NCBI GenBank assembly: GCA_019752045.1
Contig: JAIEMP010000004.1
Coordinates: 62,001-126,000, forward strand
Length of the DNA stretch: 64,000 nt
DNA from: Chitinophagaceae bacterium
GTDB lineage: Bacteria; Bacteroidota; Bacteroidia; Chitinophagales; Chitinophagaceae
Reading direction: 5' to 3'
Shown here: piece by piece, positions 16,664 to 32,269 of the stretch
Layout of the letters: each line of letters begins with the position of its first letter
Numbering within the stretch: position 1 is the first letter of the stretch
The notes under the pieces: generated by a model
The model's input: only the letters and a program-made list of their open reading frames with translations
What the model was told of the DNA's origin: nothing
Database searches by the model: none
Made by a program: the position numbers and the translations under genes

Positions 16664-19600
16664 ATGCCATATTCCCCCTCCAACAAAGTGCGCATCGTTA
16701 CTGCCGCTTCCCTTTTCGATGGACACGATGCTGCCATCAACATCATGCGCCGCATTATGCAAAGCAAAGGCGCAGAAATTATTCATCTCGGTCATAACCG
16801 GAGCGTGTTGGAAATTGTGGAATGTGCCATTGAAGAAGATGCACAAGGCATTGCCATTACAAGTTACCAGGGCGGGCACGTAGAATTTTTCAAATACATG
16901 AAAGATCTGCTGGAAGAAAATGGTTGCGGCCACATCAAAATTTTCGGTGGCGGTGGTGGTACGATCCTGCCTGCAGAAATAGATGAATTGCATCAATATG
17001 GTATCACACGTATTTATTCGCCGGATGATGGACGACAGATGGGGCTTGAAGGAATGATTGAAGATGTGATTAAACAATGTAGCCCCCTCCCAACCTCCCC
17101 CAAAGGGGGAGGAGATTGGCAACAGTCTGACTATTGGTCAGCATCAAAAAAATGGAATGGAAAACTTCCGCTTGGTGAAGTAAAAGATATCAGACGTATT
17201 GCAAGAATGATTTCATTAGCTGAAACTGGAAACGATTATTCTCATATCAAAGCAGGGATGTCAAAATTATCAAGCTCTGAAATCCCCCCTTTGGGGGGTG
17301 GGGGGGCACCTGTTCTCGGAATTACCGGTACAGGCGGTGCAGGTAAATCGTCAGTAACGGATGAAATTGTTCGTCGCTATTTAAATGCGTTCACAGATAA
17401 AACAATCGCTGTTATTTCTGTTGATCCATCAAAGAAAAAAACAGGTGGCGCTTTGCTGGGTGATCGTATTCGAATGAATTCGATTTCCAATCCACGGGCT
17501 TATATGCGCAGCCTTGCTACAAGAGAAAGTGATAAAGCGTTAAGTGCACATGTGCAGGAAGCAATTGACATTTGTAAAGAAGCTGGCTTTGATTTTATTA
17601 TTCTTGAAAGTGCAGGTGTTGGACAAAGTGATGCATCTATTCTTGATTACTGTAATGTGAGTTTATATGTGATGACGCCGGAATATGGTGCCGCATCTCA
17701 ACTGGAAAAAATCAACATGCTGGATTATGCCGATGTAATTGCCATCAACAAATTTGATAAAGCAGGAGCATTGGATGCATTGGCCGATGTACGCAAGCAA
17801 TACAAACGCAATCATCAACTTTTTATGGCAAAGGATGATGAGCTGCCGATAGTTGGTACCATAGCATCGCAGTTCAATGATGCAGGTGTAAATGAATTGT
17901 TTGAAAAAATTATTCATACACTTGAAATAAAAACGAGTGTAACGTTTGGTGCGGTTGAACATTTTACTCACCGGGATACGGTAAGTAAATCACTCATCAT
18001 TCCTCCTGCACGTGTTCGCTACCTGAGTGAAATTGCCGATGCCATTAAAGATTATAATCAACTCGTTATTGATCAGGCGGCAATTGCATCGAAGCTTTAC
18101 CAGTTGAATGGTGCGTTAGAAATTATTAAAGACAAAGCAGATGCTGCTTTACTGGAAACAATTCAGCAACAGATTCAATTTTATACAGATAAACAAACAC
18201 TGGTTGCAAAAAAACTCATTGCACATTGGCCGGAGAAAGTACAAGCATATCAGAAAGATTACTACGAATACAAAGTGCGTGATAAAATCATTAAGCAACC
18301 TTTGTTCAGCACCAGTTTAAGTGGTACAAGAATTCCTAAAGTAGTATTACCAAAGTATAAAGATTGGGGCGATTTATTAAAATGGCAGGCACAGGAAAAT
18401 GTTCCCGGCAGTTTTCCTTTTGCAGCCGGTGTGTTTCCGTTGAAACGTGAAGGCGAAGACCCCACAAGAATGTTTGCAGGTGAAGGCGGACCTGAACGTA
18501 CCAATAAACGTTTTCATTATGTATCACTCGATCAGCCGGCCAAACGTTTATCAACAGCATTCGATAGTGTAACATTATATGGCGAAGATCCTGCACATCG
18601 CCCCGACATTTATGGCAAAGTAGGCAACAGTGGTGTTAGTATTGCAACCGTAGATGATGCAAAAAAATTATACAGTGGGTTTGATCTCTGCGATCCAAAG
18701 ACAAGTGTAAGCATGACCATCAATGGTCCGGCCCCTATGCTATTGGCGTTTTTTATGAATGCAGCCATTGATCAGCAATGTGAAAAGTGGATTGAGGCGA
18801 ATGGTGAATGGTCAATGGTGAATGATGCCTTTGAAAAAAAATTCCCCGACAAAAAACGACCAGTATATTTTAATCCATCGGAGGCTTCGAAAGGCTCCCC
18901 TTCCGGGGGAGGTTTGGAGGGGGCTTTACCATCGGGCAACAACGGACTTGGTTTGCAATTACTCGGCTTAAGTGGCGATGAAGTATTGCCTGCTGATGTG
19001 TATGAGCAATGCCGCCAAACTGCTTTGCAACAAGTAAGAGGAACCGTGCAGGCAGATATTTTAAAAGAAGATCAGGCACAAAATACTTGCATCTTCTCAA
19101 CTGAATTTGCATTGAAGTTGATGGGTGATGTGCAGGAATACTTTATTCAGCAAAACATCCGCAACTTTTACAGTGTCAGTATCAGCGGTTATCATATTGC
19201 AGAAGCAGGTGCAAATCCTATCACACAATTGGCCTTTACATTGGCAAATGGATTTACCTATGTTGAGTATTACTTAAGCAGAGGAATGAATATTGATGAC
19301 TTTGCACCGAATCTTTCCTTCTTCTTTAGTAATGGAATGGATCCGGAGTATAGTGTGATTGGCAGAGTATCAAGAAAGATCTGGGCAAAGGCGATGAAGT
19401 ATAAGTACAAAGCCAACAAACGGAGCCAGATGTTGAAGTATCATATTCAAACAAGTGGCAGAAGTTTGCATGCACAGGAAATTGATTTCAACGATATACG
19501 TACAACATTACAGGCCTTGTATGCAATTTATGACAACTGTAATTCATTACACACGAATGCATATGATGAAGCCATTACCACACCAACAGAAGAAAGTGTT

Positions 19601-20137
19601 CGCAGAGCAATGGCCATTCAATTAATCATCAACAGAGAATTAGGCACAGCGAAAAATGAAAACCCCAACCAGGGCGCATTCTTAATTGAAGAGCTAACGG
19701 ATCTGGTTGAAGATGCAGTGATGAATGAGTTCAACCGTATTACAGAACGTGGTGGTGTACTTGGTTCCATGGAGCGGATGTACCAGCGGAATAAAATACA
19801 GGAAGAAAGTTTGTATTACGAACATCAGAAACATACCGGTGAATTACCATTGATTGGTGTAAATACTTTCTTAAGTAAAAACGGCAGCCCCACTATTTTA
19901 CCGCAGGAAGTAATTCGCAGTACAACAGAAGAAAAAGAACAGCAGATCAGTAATCTGCAAAACTTCTGGAAACGAAATGAACAACGCAGTGCAGAGGAGT
20001 TAAAGAAGCTGAAAGAAGTAGCAGTGAGCAACGGAAACATTTTTGCGCAACTGATGCAAACCGCAAAACATTGTTCACTGGGACAAATAACGCATGCTTT
20101 ATATGAAGTAGGTGGACAGTACCGAAGAAATATGTAA
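16664..20137 (+). CDS. icmF: Fused isobutyryl-CoA mutase (IcmF-type methylmalonyl-CoA mutase family protein)
   Basis: 1157-residue adenosylcobalamin-dependent acyl-CoA mutase with the IcmF domain order. An N-terminal B12-binding domain (about 8-135) has the base-off/His-on motif 'DGHDAA' (His21) and 'GGGGGTI'. A MeaB-like G-protein chaperone domain has the P-loop '[12 protein letters not shown]' (about 220-231). A C-terminal mutase barrel (about 540-1157) includes '[16 protein letters not shown]' and '[17 protein letters not shown]'. IcmF interconverts isobutyryl- and n-butyryl-CoA (some also act on pivalyl- or isovaleryl-CoA), linking valine and fatty-acid metabolism. Unusually, three GC-rich palindromic repeats are translated in frame as Pro/Gly-rich insertions at domain linkers (17082-17112, 17282-17307, 18893-18924), which makes the protein slightly longer than typical. 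The frame stays open throughout. Confidence 0.93.
17082..17112 (+). repeat. GC-rich palindromic repeat, copy A, in frame in icmF
   Basis: A perfect 8-bp stem (17094-17101 with 17105-17112, loop AAA) preceded by a C-rich tail at 17082-17091. It is translated as '[11 protein letters not shown]' between the B12-binding and G-protein domains. Its reverse complement aligns with copy C along roughly 31 bases with few mismatches. Confidence 0.8.
17282..17307 (+). repeat. GC-rich palindromic repeat, copy B, in frame in icmF
   Basis: Six C, TTT, six G form a perfect stem (17284-17289 with 17293-17298) followed by a G-rich tail to 17306. It is translated as 'IPPLGGGGA' immediately before the P-loop of the G domain. 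The orientation is opposite to copy A. Confidence 0.75.
18799..18827 (+). repeat. TGGTGAA-type heptamer repeat inside icmF
   Basis: Consecutive 7-base units of the form TGGTGAA/TGGTCAA. The reverse complement of 29178-29215 shows nearly the same series. Here it is translated as 'NGEWSMVND' in the mutase part of IcmF, 66 bases before palindromic copy C. Confidence 0.6.
18893..18924 (+). repeat. GC-rich palindromic repeat, copy C, in frame in icmF
   Basis: Stem CTCCCC/GGGGAG (18895-18900 with 18906-18911) followed by a G-rich tail. Translated as '[11 protein letters not shown]', it falls just before '[13 protein letters not shown]', a position where IcmF proteins normally have a short linker. 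It matches the reverse complement of copy A over about 31 bases. Confidence 0.8.
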
Positions 20138-25912: not shown

Positions 25913-27196
25913 TTACTTTACTTCGTACAACTCTTCCCAACGTGTGGTATAACGTGGACTGCGTAGCTCCTGCCGCATCTTCCAGTCCCGGGTGGTGCCG
26001 CTTGCTGCAAACTTCAATACATCATTCCGCTGACTGAAGTTGATGTTATCAATCATATCCATCAGCAGTCGGCTATTGTTTTTTGTTTGGGGTAAAAATA
26101 AATTTCCCTGAATAGAAGCATCTGGAACAAGTCCGCTCAACATTACACCTGCTTTTTTATAGAGCTTCCCTTTTTCAAAAATCTGATCCACTAACTCAAC
26201 CGCAGGTTTAATTAATTCATTGGTGAAGGAAGTAGGAGTTGGTAAAGTAGCGTACCGGCTGTGTGTAATACCACGGTTAAATGTAGCGTTGTGATTTTCT
26301 TCTTTCGATACTACAAATACGCTGATGATGTTGGCAGCACTCTGTTGCCGTCTTAATTTTTCGGCAGCTCTTGATGTATAGGTAGCAACGGCCTCTTTAA
26401 TATCATTGATATCGCCAACCGGGCTGCCGAACATGCGTGTGGTAGCGATCATTTTTTTGTTTACCAGTTCGTCCTGCATTTCTTTTGATGCAATACCGTT
26501 CAGTTCCCGGATCAAACGTACACCTACTACACCACCTAAATACAGGCGACCAAACTCTTCGCTCATTTTACTCAGCTGCAACGCATCATCAATAAACCAT
26601 TGTTCTTTTAGTTTCTTTGCATATTGGCCACCTACTCCCCAGATGTCGCCAACAGGTGTAATAGCTAATGCCTGTTTTATTTTCTCCATCGTATCCAGCA
26701 CAATCACTCCGCCTGATTTTACTTTGTTTTTTTTCGATAAGCGATTCGCCAACTTGGATAAAACTTTGGTTGGCGCTACACCAATTGACACCTTAATACC
26801 CGTCCATTGTTCAACCGTTGCTTTCATCTTACGTGCTATATCATCCAGGTCTTCTATCGAAAACATGCTCAGGTCCACAAATGCTTCATCAACCGAATAC
26901 ACTTCTACCTGTTGCTTACCAATAACAGCACGCAGTGTATCCATCACCCGCATGCTCAAATCGCCATAGAGGTTGTAGTTGCTGCTGAATACTGAAACAT
27001 CATGTTTTTTAATCAACGGCTTCGCCATAAAGTACGGCCCTGCCATATCTACGCCCAACAACTTTGCTTCATCGCTGCGGCTAATAATACAGCCATCGTT
27101 ATTGCTGAGTACTACAACCGGTTTATTATCCAGATGCGGTTTGAATAATCGTTCACAGGAACAATAAAAATTATTGCAATCAACAATGGCGTACAT
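25913..27196 (-). CDS. umuC: Y-family DNA polymerase UmuC
   Basis: 427 residues from the ATG at 27196 ('MYAIVDCNNFYCSCERLF'), which aligns with normal UmuC starts; the frame is open 29 codons further upstream through a palindromic repeat. Catalytic residues are present: Asp6 in 'IVDCNNFY' and the Asp-Glu of 'YSVDEAFVDLS'. 'GVAPTKVLSKLANRLSKKNK' is the Y-family palm/fingers motif, and the C-terminal DUF4113 tail ends 'SPRYTTRWEELYEVK'. It is the catalytic subunit of error-prone translesion Pol V. Its umuD partner lies upstream but a DUF559 gene intervenes. Confidence 0.94.
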   Translation of the reverse strand: MYAIVDCNNFYCSCERLFKPHLDNKPVVVLSNNDGCIISRSDEAKLLGVDMAGPYFMAKPLIKKHDVSVFSSNYNLYGDLSMRVMDTLRAVIGKQQVEVYSVDEAFVDLSMFSIEDLDDIARKMKATVEQWTGIKVSIGVAPTKVLSKLANRLSKKNKVKSGGVIVLDTMEKIKQALAITPVGDIWGVGGQYAKKLKEQWFIDDALQLSKMSEEFGRLYLGGVVGVRLIRELNGIASKEMQDELVNKKMIATTRMFGSPVGDINDIKEAVATYTSRAAEKLRRQQSAANIISVFVVSKEENHNATFNRGITHSRYATLPTPTSFTNELIKPAVELVDQIFEKGKLYKKAGVMLSGLVPDASIQGNLFLPQTKNNSRLLMDMIDNINFSQRNDVLKFAASGTTRDWKMRQELRSPRYTTRWEELYEVK

Positions 27197-27198
27197 AG

Positions 27199-27226
27199 AC
27201 CCTCCCCGCTCCCTAAAGGGAGAGCT
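27199..27226. repeat. GC-rich palindromic repeat, copy D, between DUF559 and umuC
   Basis: Stem CTCCCT/AGGGAG (27209-27214 with 27217-27222) with the tail 'CCCTCCCC' on the umuC side. It begins three bases from the umuC start codon. Its orientation is opposite to copy F on the other side of the DUF559 gene. Confidence 0.75.
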
Positions 27227-27254
27227 CAAACACTCCGCTATTTTTGTTTCTGTT

Positions 27255-27620
27255 TTAAACATGTAACAGTTCTTGTATTGCACTAATTACATGATCGAGA
27301 TCGGTTTCTATTTGTTCATTAGTAAAACGCACTACATTTATTCCATCCTCTTCAATTAGACGTTGTCTGTAGCGATCATGTTCTGCTACTTCTTTTTTCT
27401 TGTGAATTGATCCGTCAATCTCAATTACCAATTTCAGGCGATGACAATAAAAGTCTGCAATAAAAATTCCTAATGGATGTTGTCTTCTGAATTTGAAACC
27501 ATCAGGTTTTGTTCGTAAATAACTCCATAGTACCATTTCCGCATTTGTTACATGATTGCGTAACTCTTTTGCCAGTCCGAATAAAAGTGGTGAAGCCCTG
27601 TAAAACATTTTCTTTTCCAT
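27255..27620 (-). CDS. DUF559 endonuclease-domain protein (Vsr-like fold)
   Basis: 121 residues from the ATG at 27620 ('MEKKMFYRAS'); the frame stays open upstream to 27710 but that would overlap umuD. It is a DUF559 domain of the PD-(D/E)XK superfamily related to Vsr. Hallmarks are 'NAEMVLWSYLR', 'GFKFRRQHPLG', 'FIADFYCHRLKLVIEIDG' (candidate catalytic Asp and Glu), 'HDRYRQRLIEEDGINVVRF' and 'TNEQI'. The motif set is complete, so it is probably an active nuclease. It sits between umuD and umuC, where no gene is normally found, and is bracketed by inverted GC-rich palindromes (27199-27226 and 27653-27675), which suggests a cassette insertion. Confidence 0.85.
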   Translation of the reverse strand: MEKKMFYRASPLLFGLAKELRNHVTNAEMVLWSYLRTKPDGFKFRRQHPLGIFIADFYCHRLKLVIEIDGSIHKKKEVAEHDRYRQRLIEEDGINVVRFTNEQIETDLDHVISAIQELLHV

Positions 27621-27652
27621 ACTATAGTGTTTTATCTGGTTGTTGCGTATAG

Positions 27653-27675
27653 TTCCCCTGCAGGGGGTTAGGGAG
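27653..27675. repeat. GC-rich palindromic repeat, copy F, at the umuD 3' end
   Basis: A perfect 12-bp palindrome (27655-27666) followed by 'GGTTAGGGAG'. The umuD stop codon (27668-27670 on the minus strand) lies inside the element. Its outward tail mirrors that of copy D, so the two resemble terminal inverted repeats around DUF559. Confidence 0.7.
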
Positions 27676-28105
27676 TAAACGAATGAATGGAATGCACCAC
27701 CACTCCCCACACTTTAAAATCACTGAACTCTGCCAGGTTCACCGGTTTGTATCTCGGATTTTCCGGAATTAAAAATGCCGATGAAAAATTTTTATGAAAT
27801 CTTCGCACAAGCAATTCACCATTGAGTACCGCTACAATAATTTTTCCATTCATTAATTGAAACGAACGGTCTACAATTAAAATATCGCCATCAAAAATGC
27901 CCACCTGCTGCATGGCATCGCCTTTCATTTTAAAAAAGAAAGTAGCCGGTTTGTTTTTAATCAACTGTTCATTTAAATCAATACCACGCTCAGCATAATC
28001 ATCGGCAGCTGCACCAAACCCCGTGGCGTTGGCTGTTTTCACCTGCTGTTGTGTAAACTGTTTACTGCCTTTATAGGCAGCTCCAAAAAAATCGTCCCCA
28101 TCCAT
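27668..28105 (-). CDS. umuD: UmuD-like S24 family protein with substituted catalytic dyad
   Basis: 145 residues, normal UmuD length. It aligns along E. coli UmuD: 'AERGIDLNEQLIKNKPATFF', 'GIFDGDILIVDRS', 'KVWGVVVHSIH'. The nucleophile Ser of the 'GDSM' motif is Ala here ('KGDAM', Ala64, codon GCC) and the general-base Lys is Arg ('LLVRRF', Arg101, codon CGA). The scissile Cys/Ala-Gly is Thr-Gly ('ATGFG'). Autocleavage to UmuD' therefore seems impossible. UmuD-family proteins regulate and assemble with UmuC in Pol V; this one would act as a fixed uncleaved form. The C-terminal codons run into palindromic repeat F. Confidence 0.9.
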   Translation of the reverse strand: MDGDDFFGAAYKGSKQFTQQQVKTANATGFGAAADDYAERGIDLNEQLIKNKPATFFFKMKGDAMQQVGIFDGDILIVDRSFQLMNGKIIVAVLNGELLVRRFHKNFSSAFLIPENPRYKPVNLAEFSDFKVWGVVVHSIHSFTP

Positions 28106-28384: not shown

Positions 28385-29041
28385 ATGAAATTAGATACAA
28401 CGCATGGCCTCCCTCTCCTTTGGAGAGGGAACGAGGGTGAGGCTTCCATTCCCGGTTACCGAGTATATGAGTACCTGCTGGTATTAAGTCCGCACGAAGA
28501 ATTATGGAACCGCATTATAAAAGTGAAAGAACAGTTTTCAACCGATTACCGTTGTGAACAGGCGAAGTGGGGGAAGCCACACATTACGCTGGCGAATTTT
28601 CTCCAGTATGAAATGATGGAAGAACGTTTGATCAACCGGTTAAAGATGATTGCTATGGGTTTTCATCCCATAAAAGTGGAGCTGAGAGATTATGGGAGTT
28701 TTCCTTCTCACACTATTTATATTAATGTAGTGAGTAAACTTCCGATTCAATCATTGGTGAAAACCATACGAACAGATGCGCAACGGTTAATGAAACTCAA
28801 TAATGATAATAAGCCGCATTTTATTTTAGAACCTCATTTAACGATTGCAAGAAAGTTACAACCCTGGCAATATGAAAAAGGCTGGCTGGAGTACAGTCAT
28901 AAACATTTCACAGGAAGATTTATTGCAGATGGTATGTTATTGCTCAAGCGACCACTGTTTGAAAACAAGTATCAAATCGTTCAACGCCTGGAGTTTCAAA
29001 ATTTGGCAGTAACTACAAAACAGGGAGAATTATTTGTCTGA
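28385..29041 (+). CDS. 2'-5' RNA ligase family protein
   Basis: 218-residue member of the 2H phosphoesterase superfamily. Both His-x-Thr signatures are present: 'KPHITLANF' and 'EPHLTIARK'. These enzymes ligate or hydrolyse 2'-5' or cyclic phosphodiester bonds in RNA; many bacterial members act as cyclic phosphodiesterases. The only in-frame ATG before the conserved 'YEYLLVLSPHEELW' lies upstream of a GC-rich palindromic repeat (copy E), so about 13 N-terminal residues ('GLPLLWRGNEGEA') are encoded by the repeat. It is divergent from the umuD group. Confidence 0.8.
   Translation: MKLDTTHGLPLLWRGNEGEASIPGYRVYEYLLVLSPHEELWNRIIKVKEQFSTDYRCEQAKWGKPHITLANFLQYEMMEERLINRLKMIAMGFHPIKVELRDYGSFPSHTIYINVVSKLPIQSLVKTIRTDAQRLMKLNNDNKPHFILEPHLTIARKLQPWQYEKGWLEYSHKHFTGRFIADGMLLLKRPLFENKYQIVQRLEFQNLAVTTKQGELFV
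28406..28443 (+). repeat. GC-rich palindromic repeat, copy E, in frame at the RNA ligase-like N-terminus
   Basis: A perfect 8-bp stem CCCTCTCC/GGAGAGGG (28411-28418 with 28422-28429, loop TTT) followed by a G-rich tail 'CGAGGGTGAGGC'. It has the same design as copies A-D and is translated from codon 8 onward. Confidence 0.8.
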
Positions 29042-30374: not shown

Positions 30375-31535
30375 ATGCCCAAGCAAAATCCTAAAAAAAT
30401 TGTATTACCACATTCAAAGGCAAAGCTGGATTTATATAAGTCTTATTTAAGCGAGTATTTGCCGATACTAGGACATTCAAAGTATATTGACGGGATAAAT
30501 GTTTTTGACATCTTTTGCGGAACTGGTATTTATGATGATGGTAATTTAGGCAGCCCTCTAATCGCAGCCGCATGTGTTTTGGAGTATGAAAAGTATTTTA
30601 GAGAACGAAACCAGAAAAGTAAACCTGTAAAGCTCTTTATAAATGACTTCGATACAGATAAGGTCGAGTCTGTAAATGAAATTATTAGCAAGTTTGAATT
30701 CGAAAATTGTAAAGTTAATCCTTATAATTTGGATGCGTCTGAAATGTTAGACGTTGTGAGGGATAAAATAAATTCGTTTTCCGATAGAGAACGTAGTCTT
30801 GTTTTTATTGATCCTTATGGGTATTCAAAAATTGACAAGGAAAAGCTTTATCAGTTATTAAAACGCAGAAGATCAGAAATAATCTTATTTCTACCAGTTG
30901 CACATATGAAAAGATTTACCGACGAAGCATTGACTGATTATGAGAAAAAAGCTTATGAAAACCTGCGAAAATTTATTTTAGATTTTTTTGATGCGAGTTC
31001 CAGAGTATTACAAGAGAGTAATTTAAATATTTTTGATTACATAGAAGAATTAAGGAAAGCTTTCTCTTTTGACAATGAGTTTTATACCGCATCGCATTAT
31101 ATTGAACGTAATAAGGCTAATTATTATGCGTTGTTCTTTATTGGTCACCATATTTATGGGTTAGAAAAATTTATTGAAGCGAAATGGAAAAATGATAGTC
31201 TTGGCAAAGGCTTTAATCAAAGCAGGAATTCTGCTACTTTGTTTGGCGAAAGTCTTATTGAGTATGATAAGAACGTAAGTGTTTCTAGACTGGAGCAGAT
31301 CTTTAGATCGGCTATTGAAAAGTCTCCTATGTCAAATATTGAATTGTATGAGTTTACTTTATCTAACCAGTTTAAAAGTGCGCATATGAATCAGCTTATA
31401 CGAGAATGGAAGAAGGCTAAGAAAATCCAAATTCTTGATATGAAAGGAAACCCAATTGAAGACATAAGAGGTTTTGGCCTAACTTATGATGACTATAAAT
31501 CGAAAACACCTTCTTACTTAATTAAAAAAAGATAA
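30375..31535 (+). CDS. tcmP: Three-Cys-motif partner protein TcmP
   Basis: 386-residue protein recognised as TcmP. The N-terminus has 'KLDLYKSYLSEYLPILG', then a Rossmann methyltransferase-like motif I 'VFDIFCGTGIYDDG' with the TcmP hallmark 'GSPLIAAA', and a motif IV-like 'LVFIDPYGYSKID'. The C-terminal half (about 190-386) is helical and winged-helix-like. The family is named for its genetic pairing with proteins carrying a radical SAM-like three-Cys motif, and exactly such a gene follows after 2 bp. The biochemical role is unknown; a SAM-binding enzyme acting with the partner is plausible but inferred. Confidence 0.85.
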   Translation: MPKQNPKKIVLPHSKAKLDLYKSYLSEYLPILGHSKYIDGINVFDIFCGTGIYDDGNLGSPLIAAACVLEYEKYFRERNQKSKPVKLFINDFDTDKVESVNEIISKFEFENCKVNPYNLDASEMLDVVRDKINSFSDRERSLVFIDPYGYSKIDKEKLYQLLKRRRSEIILFLPVAHMKRFTDEALTDYEKKAYENLRKFILDFFDASSRVLQESNLNIFDYIEELRKAFSFDNEFYTASHYIERNKANYYALFFIGHHIYGLEKFIEAKWKNDSLGKGFNQSRNSATLFGESLIEYDKNVSVSRLEQIFRSAIEKSPMSNIELYEFTLSNQFKSAHMNQLIREWKKAKKIQILDMKGNPIEDIRGFGLTYDDYKSKTPSYLIKKR

Positions 31536-31537
31536 AA

Positions 31538-32269
31538 ATGGCACAATCTTCAATAGAATGGACTGAAATGACTTGGAATCCAACTACAGGCTGTAATAAA
31601 ATATCTGCAGGCTGTAAATATTGTTATGCTGAGGTGATGGCTCGTAGATTAAAAGCGATGGGAGTTGATAAATATAAAGATGGGTTTAAACTTCGGATAC
31701 ATGATGATGCTTTATTGATTCCGTATTCCTGGAAGCATCCTAAAATTGTGTTTGTTAATTCAATGAGTGATCTTTTTCATAAAGATGTCCCACTTGAATT
31801 TATCAAGAAGGTTTTTAAAGTAATGAATGAAAATCCACAGCATACTTTTCAGGTTCTCACAAAACGTTCAGATATTTTATTAAAGTATCATAAGGAGTTA
31901 AAATGGACGCATAATATCTGGATGGGCGTGTCTGTGGAAGATGATAGAGTAAAGCATCGTATTGACGATTTACGTAAAACAAATGCAAGAACTAAATTCT
32001 TATCATGTGAACCATTAATCGGCCCTCTACATAAACTCAATCTTAAAAAAATTGATTGGGTAATTGTAGGTGGTGAAAGTGGAAGAACACCAAGACCAAT
32101 GGATGTAGATTGGGTCTTAGATATTCAACAACAATGTGAGAAAGCTAAAGTAGCCTTCTTCTTTAAACAATGGGGTGGTACTAATAAAAAGAAAACTGGA
32201 AGATTGCTTAATGGTAAAACTTATGACGAAATGCCAAGTAATGAACAACTGGAAGAAATTCAGCATTAA
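31538..32269 (+). CDS. DUF5131 (phage Gp37/Gp68-type) three-Cys-motif protein
   Basis: 243 residues. The N-terminal 'SIEWTEMTWNPTTGCNK' and 'GCKYCYAEVMARRL' give a CxxxxxCxxC-type three-Cys motif of the radical SAM-like kind. 'IVFVNSMSDLFHKDVP', 'FQVLTKRSD', 'IWMGVSVED', 'FLSCEPLIGPL' and 'WVIVGGESG' are the standard DUF5131 segments, ending with 'FFFKQWGG'. The family is often found on phages and accessory islands. It is encoded two bases after tcmP, so they form an operon and probably a functional pair. The substrate is unknown. Confidence 0.88.
   Translation: MAQSSIEWTEMTWNPTTGCNKISAGCKYCYAEVMARRLKAMGVDKYKDGFKLRIHDDALLIPYSWKHPKIVFVNSMSDLFHKDVPLEFIKKVFKVMNENPQHTFQVLTKRSDILLKYHKELKWTHNIWMGVSVEDDRVKHRIDDLRKTNARTKFLSCEPLIGPLHKLNLKKIDWVIVGGESGRTPRPMDVDWVLDIQQQCEKAKVAFFFKQWGGTNKKKTGRLLNGKTYDEMPSNEQLEEIQH

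Follow-up and report, generated by a model that had tools for sequence, protein, structure and literature searches.

REP and REPIN sequences are short dispersed palindromes with tails that also occur as inverted doublets. In REPtrons, such palindromes flank the gene of an enzyme, the RAYT (TnpA-REP), which is the known partner of REPs. Intragenic REP copies are known as well, and REP families without a known transposase are called an open question, stated for the CGTC repeats (available text of PMC3733652). Rickettsia palindromic elements (RPEs) are likewise palindromes located in frame in many unrelated genes (available text of PMC10969869 and PMC3733652). There they are inserts of about 150 bp or shorter, and no nuclease is mentioned. 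The EDxHD family of homing endonucleases, to which I-Bth0305I (3r3p) belongs, is described in PMC3943268 (available part). The domain studied here, DUF559, is shared by NGO0050 (3hrl) and by VsrA of Caulobacter, which is needed for the DNA-damage response in cells without cytosine methyltransferase and has been proposed as a mismatch repair enzyme; the string 'palindrom' is absent from the available text of that paper (PMC12907096).

We analyzed a DUF559 gene located between umuD and umuC in the window, that is, the whole stretch of 64,000 nucleotides of Chitinophagaceae DNA. As in REPtrons, this enzyme gene is flanked by palindromes, and inverted doublets of the same repeat occur without the enzyme. 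It differs from REPtrons because its product is a PD-(D/E)XK-type nuclease and not a Y1 (HUH) transposase, because GTAG/CGTC tags are not enriched, and because the enzyme gene often lies in frame inside host genes. Like free-standing homing endonuclease genes, DUF559 occupies shared insertion sites in many genera, with clean empty alleles and no target duplication. I-Bth0305I is its closest functional match by fold and profile. Unlike I-Bth0305I, DUF559 units were found without an intron or intein, have palindromic ends and dispersed nuclease-less copies, and encode a single small domain that lacks the long DNA-binding region described for I-Bth0305I in the available literature. With RPEs, the units share palindromes in frame inside open reading frames (ORFs), but they carry a nuclease. 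The difference from VsrA is the mismatch repair role proposed for the latter, with no palindromes mentioned in the available text of its paper (PMC12907096). Our literature search covered titles and the starts of abstracts, mostly outside subscription journals and outside bioRxiv; among the papers listed, none concerned such a DUF559 palindrome element. An in-frame precedent is provided by the LAGLIDADG genes in fungal mitochondrial rps3.

A DUF559 gene framed by palindromes between umuD and umuC

The locus consists of the following features:

25913..27196, minus strand: umuC, host-operon gene on the downstream side of the insertion (Pfam IMS, IMS_C, DUF4113)
27199..27226, minus strand: palindrome D, putative 3' end of the element, tail facing umuC (sequence)
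27255..27620, minus strand: DUF559 nuclease gene, 121 aa, predicted Vsr/EDxHD-like fold (Pfam PF04480, E 6e-31; AlphaFold model)
27653..27675, plus strand: palindrome F, putative 5' end of the element, tail holding the umuD stop codon (sequence)
27668..28105, minus strand: umuD, host-operon gene on the upstream side of the insertion (Pfam Peptidase_S24)

The order on the minus strand is umuD (28105-27668), DUF559 (27620-27255) and umuC (27196-25913). Both the coordinates and the Pfam matches (DUF559, Peptidase_S24, IMS) agree with the initial annotation, which had placed a DUF559 gene between umuD and umuC. The PF04480 score of 106.9 bits lies above the curated cutoff of 20.6 and assigns the protein to Pfam DUF559. 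The two GC-rich palindromes described there are also present. Hairpin F is located upstream of the DUF559 gene, with the last umuD codons and the stop codon in its tail, and hairpin D is located in the interval between DUF559 and umuC. In both, the hairpin side faces the DUF559 gene and the G/C tail faces outward. The same annotation had likened the pair to terminal inverted repeats. Matched ends were found across the family (see below), but the local inverted score of D against F was 9.5 (locus L004), which is at background level. Because this mutual match is weak, the pair alone is no proof of terminal inverted repeats, and the case rests on comparison with other loci.

The window is without any tRNA, which rules out a tRNA insertion site. 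Two adjacent genes are located at 30375-31535 and 31538-32269; we take them to resemble a three-Cys-motif partner protein and its Gp37/Gp68-like companion.

Predicted fold and conserved residues of the nuclease

The AlphaFold model of the window protein had a pLDDT of 88, and its best PDB matches were 3hrl, which is endonuclease-like and of the DUF559 family, and the homing endonuclease I-Bth0305I. Vsr (1vsr, E 0.15) and TnsA (E 0.89) were matched without significance. The profile search concurred, with E 9e-34 for 3hrl and 2e-7 for I-Bth0305I. An EDxHD/Vsr-like fold with conserved acidic residues, as predicted here, is a trait of homing endonucleases. The columns E13, D41, E52, D54, H58 and D67 were at least 99% conserved in 221 domains, including the copies embedded in host genes. 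Because the embedded copies keep these columns, nuclease activity seems to be maintained by selection inside the host enzymes. A catalytic assignment among the six residues would follow from our reading of the predicted fold. In PADLOC, the window protein matched the restriction- or defense-type models mREase_II (E 9e-6) and DpdF (E 3e-5), and the copy in acs matched a homing-endonuclease model (E 2e-4).

Many DUF559 domains are flanked by matched inverted ends

DUF559 was found in 76 of the 147 genomes of the family and in 170 of 296 in the phylum sample; a phage collection gave 5 matches. The genome containing the window carries five DUF559 copies, all of which have GC palindromes on both sides as judged by eye. 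Each locus was scored by comparing the 250 nt that precede the domain with the reverse complement of the 250 nt that follow it; the best local match was taken as the score, with a threshold of at least 13. The family set comprised 114 loci, mostly the strongest of the matches listed; some full-length copies, such as G123:C3:440835, G012:C265 and G027:C2:1185, lie outside it. Loci with a flank shorter than 100 nt were dropped, namely L039 of the family set (leaving 113), two of the 80 named loci and one of the 29 phylum loci. Since L205 equals L017 over the nuclease and the compared host stretch, the locus sets overlap.

In the family, 73 of 113 loci scored at least 13. Among the controls, this score was reached by 1 of 108 window pairs at a further distance of 700 nt and by 23 of 339 flank pairs with swapped partners. 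Inverted palindromes, whose excess around DUF559 genes the initial annotation had proposed to check, were thus far commoner there than in the controls. Of the 113 family loci, 63 had hairpins with a stem of at least 6 on both sides and 89 had them on one side or both; for the 108 control pairs, taken at the same further distance of 700 nt, the counts were 0 and 18. The threshold was also reached by 46 of 78 named loci (controls 1/71), by 19 of 28 loci of the phylum sample (controls 0/25) and by 9 of 14 plasmid-collection records from Cyanobacteria, Deinococcus and Proteobacteria (controls 0/14). On the plasmids, the inverted ends reach about 70-90 nt, e.g., between paaD and paaZ of Deinococcus psychrotolerans; the five loci below 13 were L332, L334 (Rhizobiaceae), L324, L322 and L325 (the last two both 12.5). 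The DUF559 locus of Sinorhizobium meliloti Ak57 had clear matched ends with a score of 104, and at that of E. coli KE47 the inverted ends were unmatched (9.5). In Azospirillum brasilense, three loci scored 14 through a non-palindromic match, with clear palindromes by eye on the left only, and were left out of the positives. Matched inverted ends were absent from the gene controls umuC (0/27) and leuS (0/23) and from shuffled flanks (0/119), and they were present at four of five loci of the positive control, Y1_Tnp.

Free and embedded copies both had matched ends (57/82 and 80/135, with controls of 0/77 and 2/125, respectively). Terminal inverted repeats, a trait of classical insertion sequences, therefore occur, though not in every copy: 80 of 217 loci were without them by score, including the window copy (9.5). 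A score of at least 13 was reached in direct orientation as well by 39 of 113 family loci, as is possible for self-complementary repeats. The end-to-end length of the 114 units with matched ends was 430-680 nt for the central 90% (median 513). The tails of 114 elements pointed outward in 50, inward in 17 and were unclear in 47. Palindrome type and the similarity of the DUF559 copies were correlated (rho 0.36; 500 permutations gave at most 0.11), which could partly reflect the relatedness of the genomes.

On the cyanobacterial plasmids with L322 and L325, DUF559 adjoins genes annotated as DUF1156. Two Deinococcus plasmids (L326, L328) carry DUF559 at two different positions of one kind of hpa gene cluster. 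In S. meliloti Ak57 (L341, CP090106.1), ISRm16 adjoins the DUF559 unit, apparently inside a palindrome flank, as seen by comparison with Sinorhizobium K101 and C101. Sinorhizobium was ruled out as a strain-level empty site, because the compared strains carry the element.

In-frame copies inside host enzymes

In the genome containing the window, DUF559 is located in frame within acetyl-CoA synthetase (acs, L002) and leucyl-tRNA synthetase (leuS, L003). A single open frame runs through host, palindrome, nuclease, palindrome and host again; the sequence around the two domains is recognized as acetate-CoA ligase and leuS, respectively, by Pfam and NCBIfam. Palindromes in frame inside ORFs are a trait of RPEs. 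In the family set, 50 of 114 loci were embedded on both sides in the host frame; in the phylum sample, 11 of 29 were. The value of 73 of 80 for the named loci is biased, because these loci were the top matches of a query that consisted mainly of embedded copies. The 135 embedded loci fell into 29 host clusters, one of which merged leuS and metG and was split by motif.

Host domains flanked DUF559 on either side in all 10 hosts scanned with Pfam, which included LeuRS, MetRS, another class I synthetase (IleRS by eye), MetH, IcmF, CinA, adenine deaminase and Acs; AroC, RecG, UvrA, MurC and other hosts were identified by eye. No intein or Hint family was detected in these 10 scans at E≤1e-5. Of 144 family genomes in which leuS was matched, 21 carry DUF559 in this gene, as counted by hand among the matches listed. 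Among these listed matches, occupied leuS was single-copy, second matches being weak or pieces of contigs. Some leuS genes carry two DUF559 insertions at different sites in one open frame of more than 1300 aa (L010 in G123; L012 and L041 in G013). A TADPxxYxLL-like stretch precedes the domain in 75 of 135 embedded copies, compared to 4 of 86 free copies (e.g., L017, L207, L273). The structure model of AroC::DUF559 had a pLDDT of 45 and gave no information on the host part.

Empty and scar-like sites

An empty umuD-umuC site in relatives, which the initial annotation had proposed to look for, was found: DUF559 was present at none of 29 umuC loci (one of them, L133, with 643 N in the gap). Both umuD and umuC were found at 25 of the 29, and the gap between them was at most 60 nt in 16 of these 25.

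One same-genus pair offered an occupied and an empty metG allele whose DNA is 97.3% identical on one side of the site and 96.3% on the other. Here, 477 bp stand in place of 18 bp, in frame, with no target duplication, and the empty allele is without any palindrome. A more distant metG pair (82%) had 475 in place of 22, and leuS of the genome containing the window had about 471 bp in place of 18 bp of a same-genus leuS (80-81% identity). Occupation of the same site across lineages, with empty alleles elsewhere, is a trait of homing endonucleases and was thus observed for leuS and metG. No clear target-site duplication was found in the outer 12-nt flanks of 114 elements: the longest shared word averaged 3.14 for own and 3.04 for swapped flanks, words of at least 5 occurred in 13/114 versus 6.2% of swapped flanks, and exactly adjacent repeats of at least 3 in 1/114. 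The 18-bp replacement and the absent target duplication fit homing without proving it.

Scar-like states were also observed. The aroC gene of G038 contains a right-end remnant only and that of G058 the left palindrome, at the position where sister genomes carry DUF559. In leuS of L153, a 50-residue loop includes a palindrome-like peptide, compared to 28-35 residues in 25 other DUF559-free loci. Such palindromes may be remnants of lost units; independent insertions and pre-existing targets would look alike here.

In G027, the umuD-umuC gap measures 559 nt (L116), and a Y1_Tnp match (G027:C1:834636-834977) lies just upstream of umuC (835136). The junction in this other genus seems to be occupied by another kind of element.

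Dispersed palindromes without a nuclease

The four further related palindromes that the initial annotation had noticed in the window are located as follows:

17082..17114, minus strand: left palindrome, in frame in an icmF-like gene (16664-20137); nuclease-less counterpart of the DUF559 site of relatives
17284..17307, plus strand: right palindrome of the nuclease-less icmF pair, directly before the right-hand DUF559 junction of relatives
18895..18924, plus strand: solo palindrome, in frame in the icmF-like gene 16664-20137 (locus L184)
28406..28443, plus strand: solo palindrome of CCTCTCC..GGGTGAGGC type, placed in frame close to the beginning of an ORF that resembles 2'-5' RNA ligases (ORF, Pfam)

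The icmF-like gene thus contains three in-frame palindromes. Its linker with the palindrome pair 17082-17307 is the DUF559 site in seven relatives (L057, L066, L073, L087, L220, L235, L263), all of which have an identical right-hand junction before GITG(T/V)GG.

A sequence model of the repeat gave at least 107 matches at E≤1 in the genome containing the window, at least 82 of them at E<0.07, including the DUF559 flanks; 107 is a lower bound because the search scored 150 of 813 candidates. Most palindromes of this genome occur singly, and they come in several subtypes, not one. Among the matches listed, 9 of 12 pairs of neighboring repeats less than 600 nt apart face outward. Two of these nine enclose DUF559, and seven are nuclease-less doublets whose spacing of 56-116 nt is too short to contain DUF559; one of the seven adjoins the DUF559 gene of L001. 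Non-autonomous inverted doublets of the same repeat are a trait of RAYT/REPtron systems. Of the best 30 repeats, 14 are located inside ORFs with at least 60 aa on either side, and 4 of these 14 are DUF559 flanks.

Relationships among DUF559 units

The tree was built from an alignment of 221 domains, with 2 of 223 left out as short or broken. Free and embedded copies were largely apart (15 changes vs at least 59 when shuffled), and copies that share an insertion site grouped together (55 changes; 50 shuffles gave at least 121). Related units were also found in unrelated genes, i.e., in acs and metH and in ade and cinA. The DNA similarity between the acs and metH units extends from the left palindrome into the right one, from -93 to +60 around the domain. 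In four pairs of related units from different hosts, the alignment extended past the 3' end of the domain, up to +60, in only two and ended at -8 and +2 in the others.

At the main site in leuS, the identity of DUF559 did not correlate with that of the host (rho 0.06, 300 pairs), so simple vertical descent is disfavored at this site. The nuclease tracked its host gene moderately in metG (rho 0.66) and ileS (rho 0.53), which would also be compatible with vertical descent.

Alternative explanations

The palindromes could be REPs mobilized by RAYT-type (Y1) transposases, with DUF559 as cargo between two REPs. RAYTs are known REP partners (available text of PMC3733652), the genome containing the window has eight Y1_Tnp loci (RAYT and IS200 pooled), and Y1_Tnp was detected in 23 of 28 DUF559-bearing genomes. 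However, five of the 28 gave no Y1_Tnp at E≤0.001, one of these being a complete single contig and one only 72% complete. The palindrome of L001-L003 was absent from all eight Y1_Tnp loci (best score ≤8.5), so a Y1 (HUH) transposase flanked by the same REP, as in RAYT/REPtron systems, was not seen for this palindrome. In the same test, L002 and L003 scored 17.5-21 and L001 12-12.5. L004 and L005, which have palindromes of other subtypes, also reached only 7-9.5; because the test consensus misses these two, the negative result for Y1 holds for one palindrome subtype only. The Y1 loci long enough to score had, in four of five cases, matched inverted ends of their own. Finally, the tags GTAG (27/114 ends, shuffled mean 50.6) and CGTC (13/114, shuffled mean 63.9) were below the shuffled expectation at DUF559 ends, which argues against membership in the GTAG and CGTC REP superfamilies; the S. 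meliloti ends look CGTC-like in places (one locus only). Given the palindrome-free Y1 loci (for one subtype) and the 5/28 genomes without Y1_Tnp, we rejected Y1/RAYT mobilization as the main reading, and we regard transport of DUF559 as REP cargo as unlikely.

It is similarly improbable that the gene encodes a domesticated repair or restriction enzyme, i.e., a Vsr-like mismatch endonuclease whose position in umuDC would provide co-regulation with the SOS response, with the palindromes acting as terminators or mRNA stabilizers. The position of the window copy within an SOS-type operon, its best PADLOC match to a methyl-directed restriction enzyme and the role of Caulobacter VsrA in the DNA-damage response (available text of PMC12907096) would fit such a function. 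It does not explain the matched inverted ends and the in-frame embedding, and it is at odds with the absence of DUF559 from the 29 umuC loci of relatives, with the copies in unrelated genes (leuS, acs, metH, aroC) and with the weak structural similarity to Vsr (1vsr, E 0.15). An explanation that we consider very unlikely is that DUF559 owns no palindromes and inserts preferentially into existing ones. Solo palindromes are indeed common, and in some relatives a single palindrome marks the site where others carry DUF559 (aroC of G058; icmF of the window). Yet the cleanest empty site (metG, 97% identity) is without a palindrome, and the two ends of each unit match each other better than swapped ends.

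Discussion

The palindrome-framed DUF559 gene has the appearance of a mobile element that has so far escaped notice and that inserts either between genes or, in frame, into enzymes such as tRNA synthetases. Our main reading, to which we assign a probability of roughly 0.7, is that DUF559 is the homing or mobilizing enzyme of a palindrome-ended element and that the dispersed palindromes are its remnants. The initial annotation had proposed DUF559 as the mobilizing or homing enzyme of the repeat family. The empty sites and the excess of flanking palindromes support this proposal, and mobilization by DUF559 itself is the part that we infer. We accordingly place the unit as a homing-type element or as a REPtron-type element with another enzyme. 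The proposed division into an autonomous unit and non-autonomous copies gained support from the nuclease-less inverted doublets of the same repeat, with DUF559 as the presumed mover. An intergenic unit of one repeat type, as originally described, fits the window copy but had to be revised for the family, because many copies are in frame in hosts, the palindromes belong to several subtypes and the tails do not always point outward.

According to the main reading, the DUF559 gene and both flanking palindromes would form one mobile unit. The endonuclease, of PD-(D/E)XK Vsr/EDxHD-like type, would most likely cut the target allele, and possibly also the palindromes; host repair would then fill the break, in the manner of homing, with a copy of the unit from palindrome to palindrome. 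A first group of units, to which the umuD-umuC copy of the window belongs, would land between genes. A second, largely separate group, without a stop codon of its own, is located in frame in variable loops or linkers of LeuRS, MetRS, IleRS, MetH, IcmF, AroC, CinA, Acs and other hosts. The palindromes of these units would be translated as Pro/Gly-rich linkers, and the embedded host would presumably work as a fusion. The two forms may represent two strategies, one between genes and one inside proteins. Loss of the nuclease would leave in-frame palindromic scars and short inverted doublets, i.e., the dispersed palindromes.

The chances are about even that these units represent a new class of bacterial mobile element spanning several phyla, in which a DUF559 homing nuclease with palindromic termini persists unspliced as a translated extra domain of essential enzymes (LeuRS, MetRS, IleRS, methionine synthase, chorismate synthase). 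The palindromes would have a double use, as termini of the DNA and as linkers in the protein, and decay of the element would seed genomes with in-frame palindromes. If the main reading is true, DUF559, a widespread domain of 'unknown function', would gain a likely role, and a class of C/G-rich bacterial palindromes (not the CGTC repeats) would gain a dedicated enzyme. It would also provide an evolutionary route for a selfish nuclease to live in essential proteins without splicing, and it makes testable the idea that in-frame palindromes of genes are footprints of DUF559 elements.
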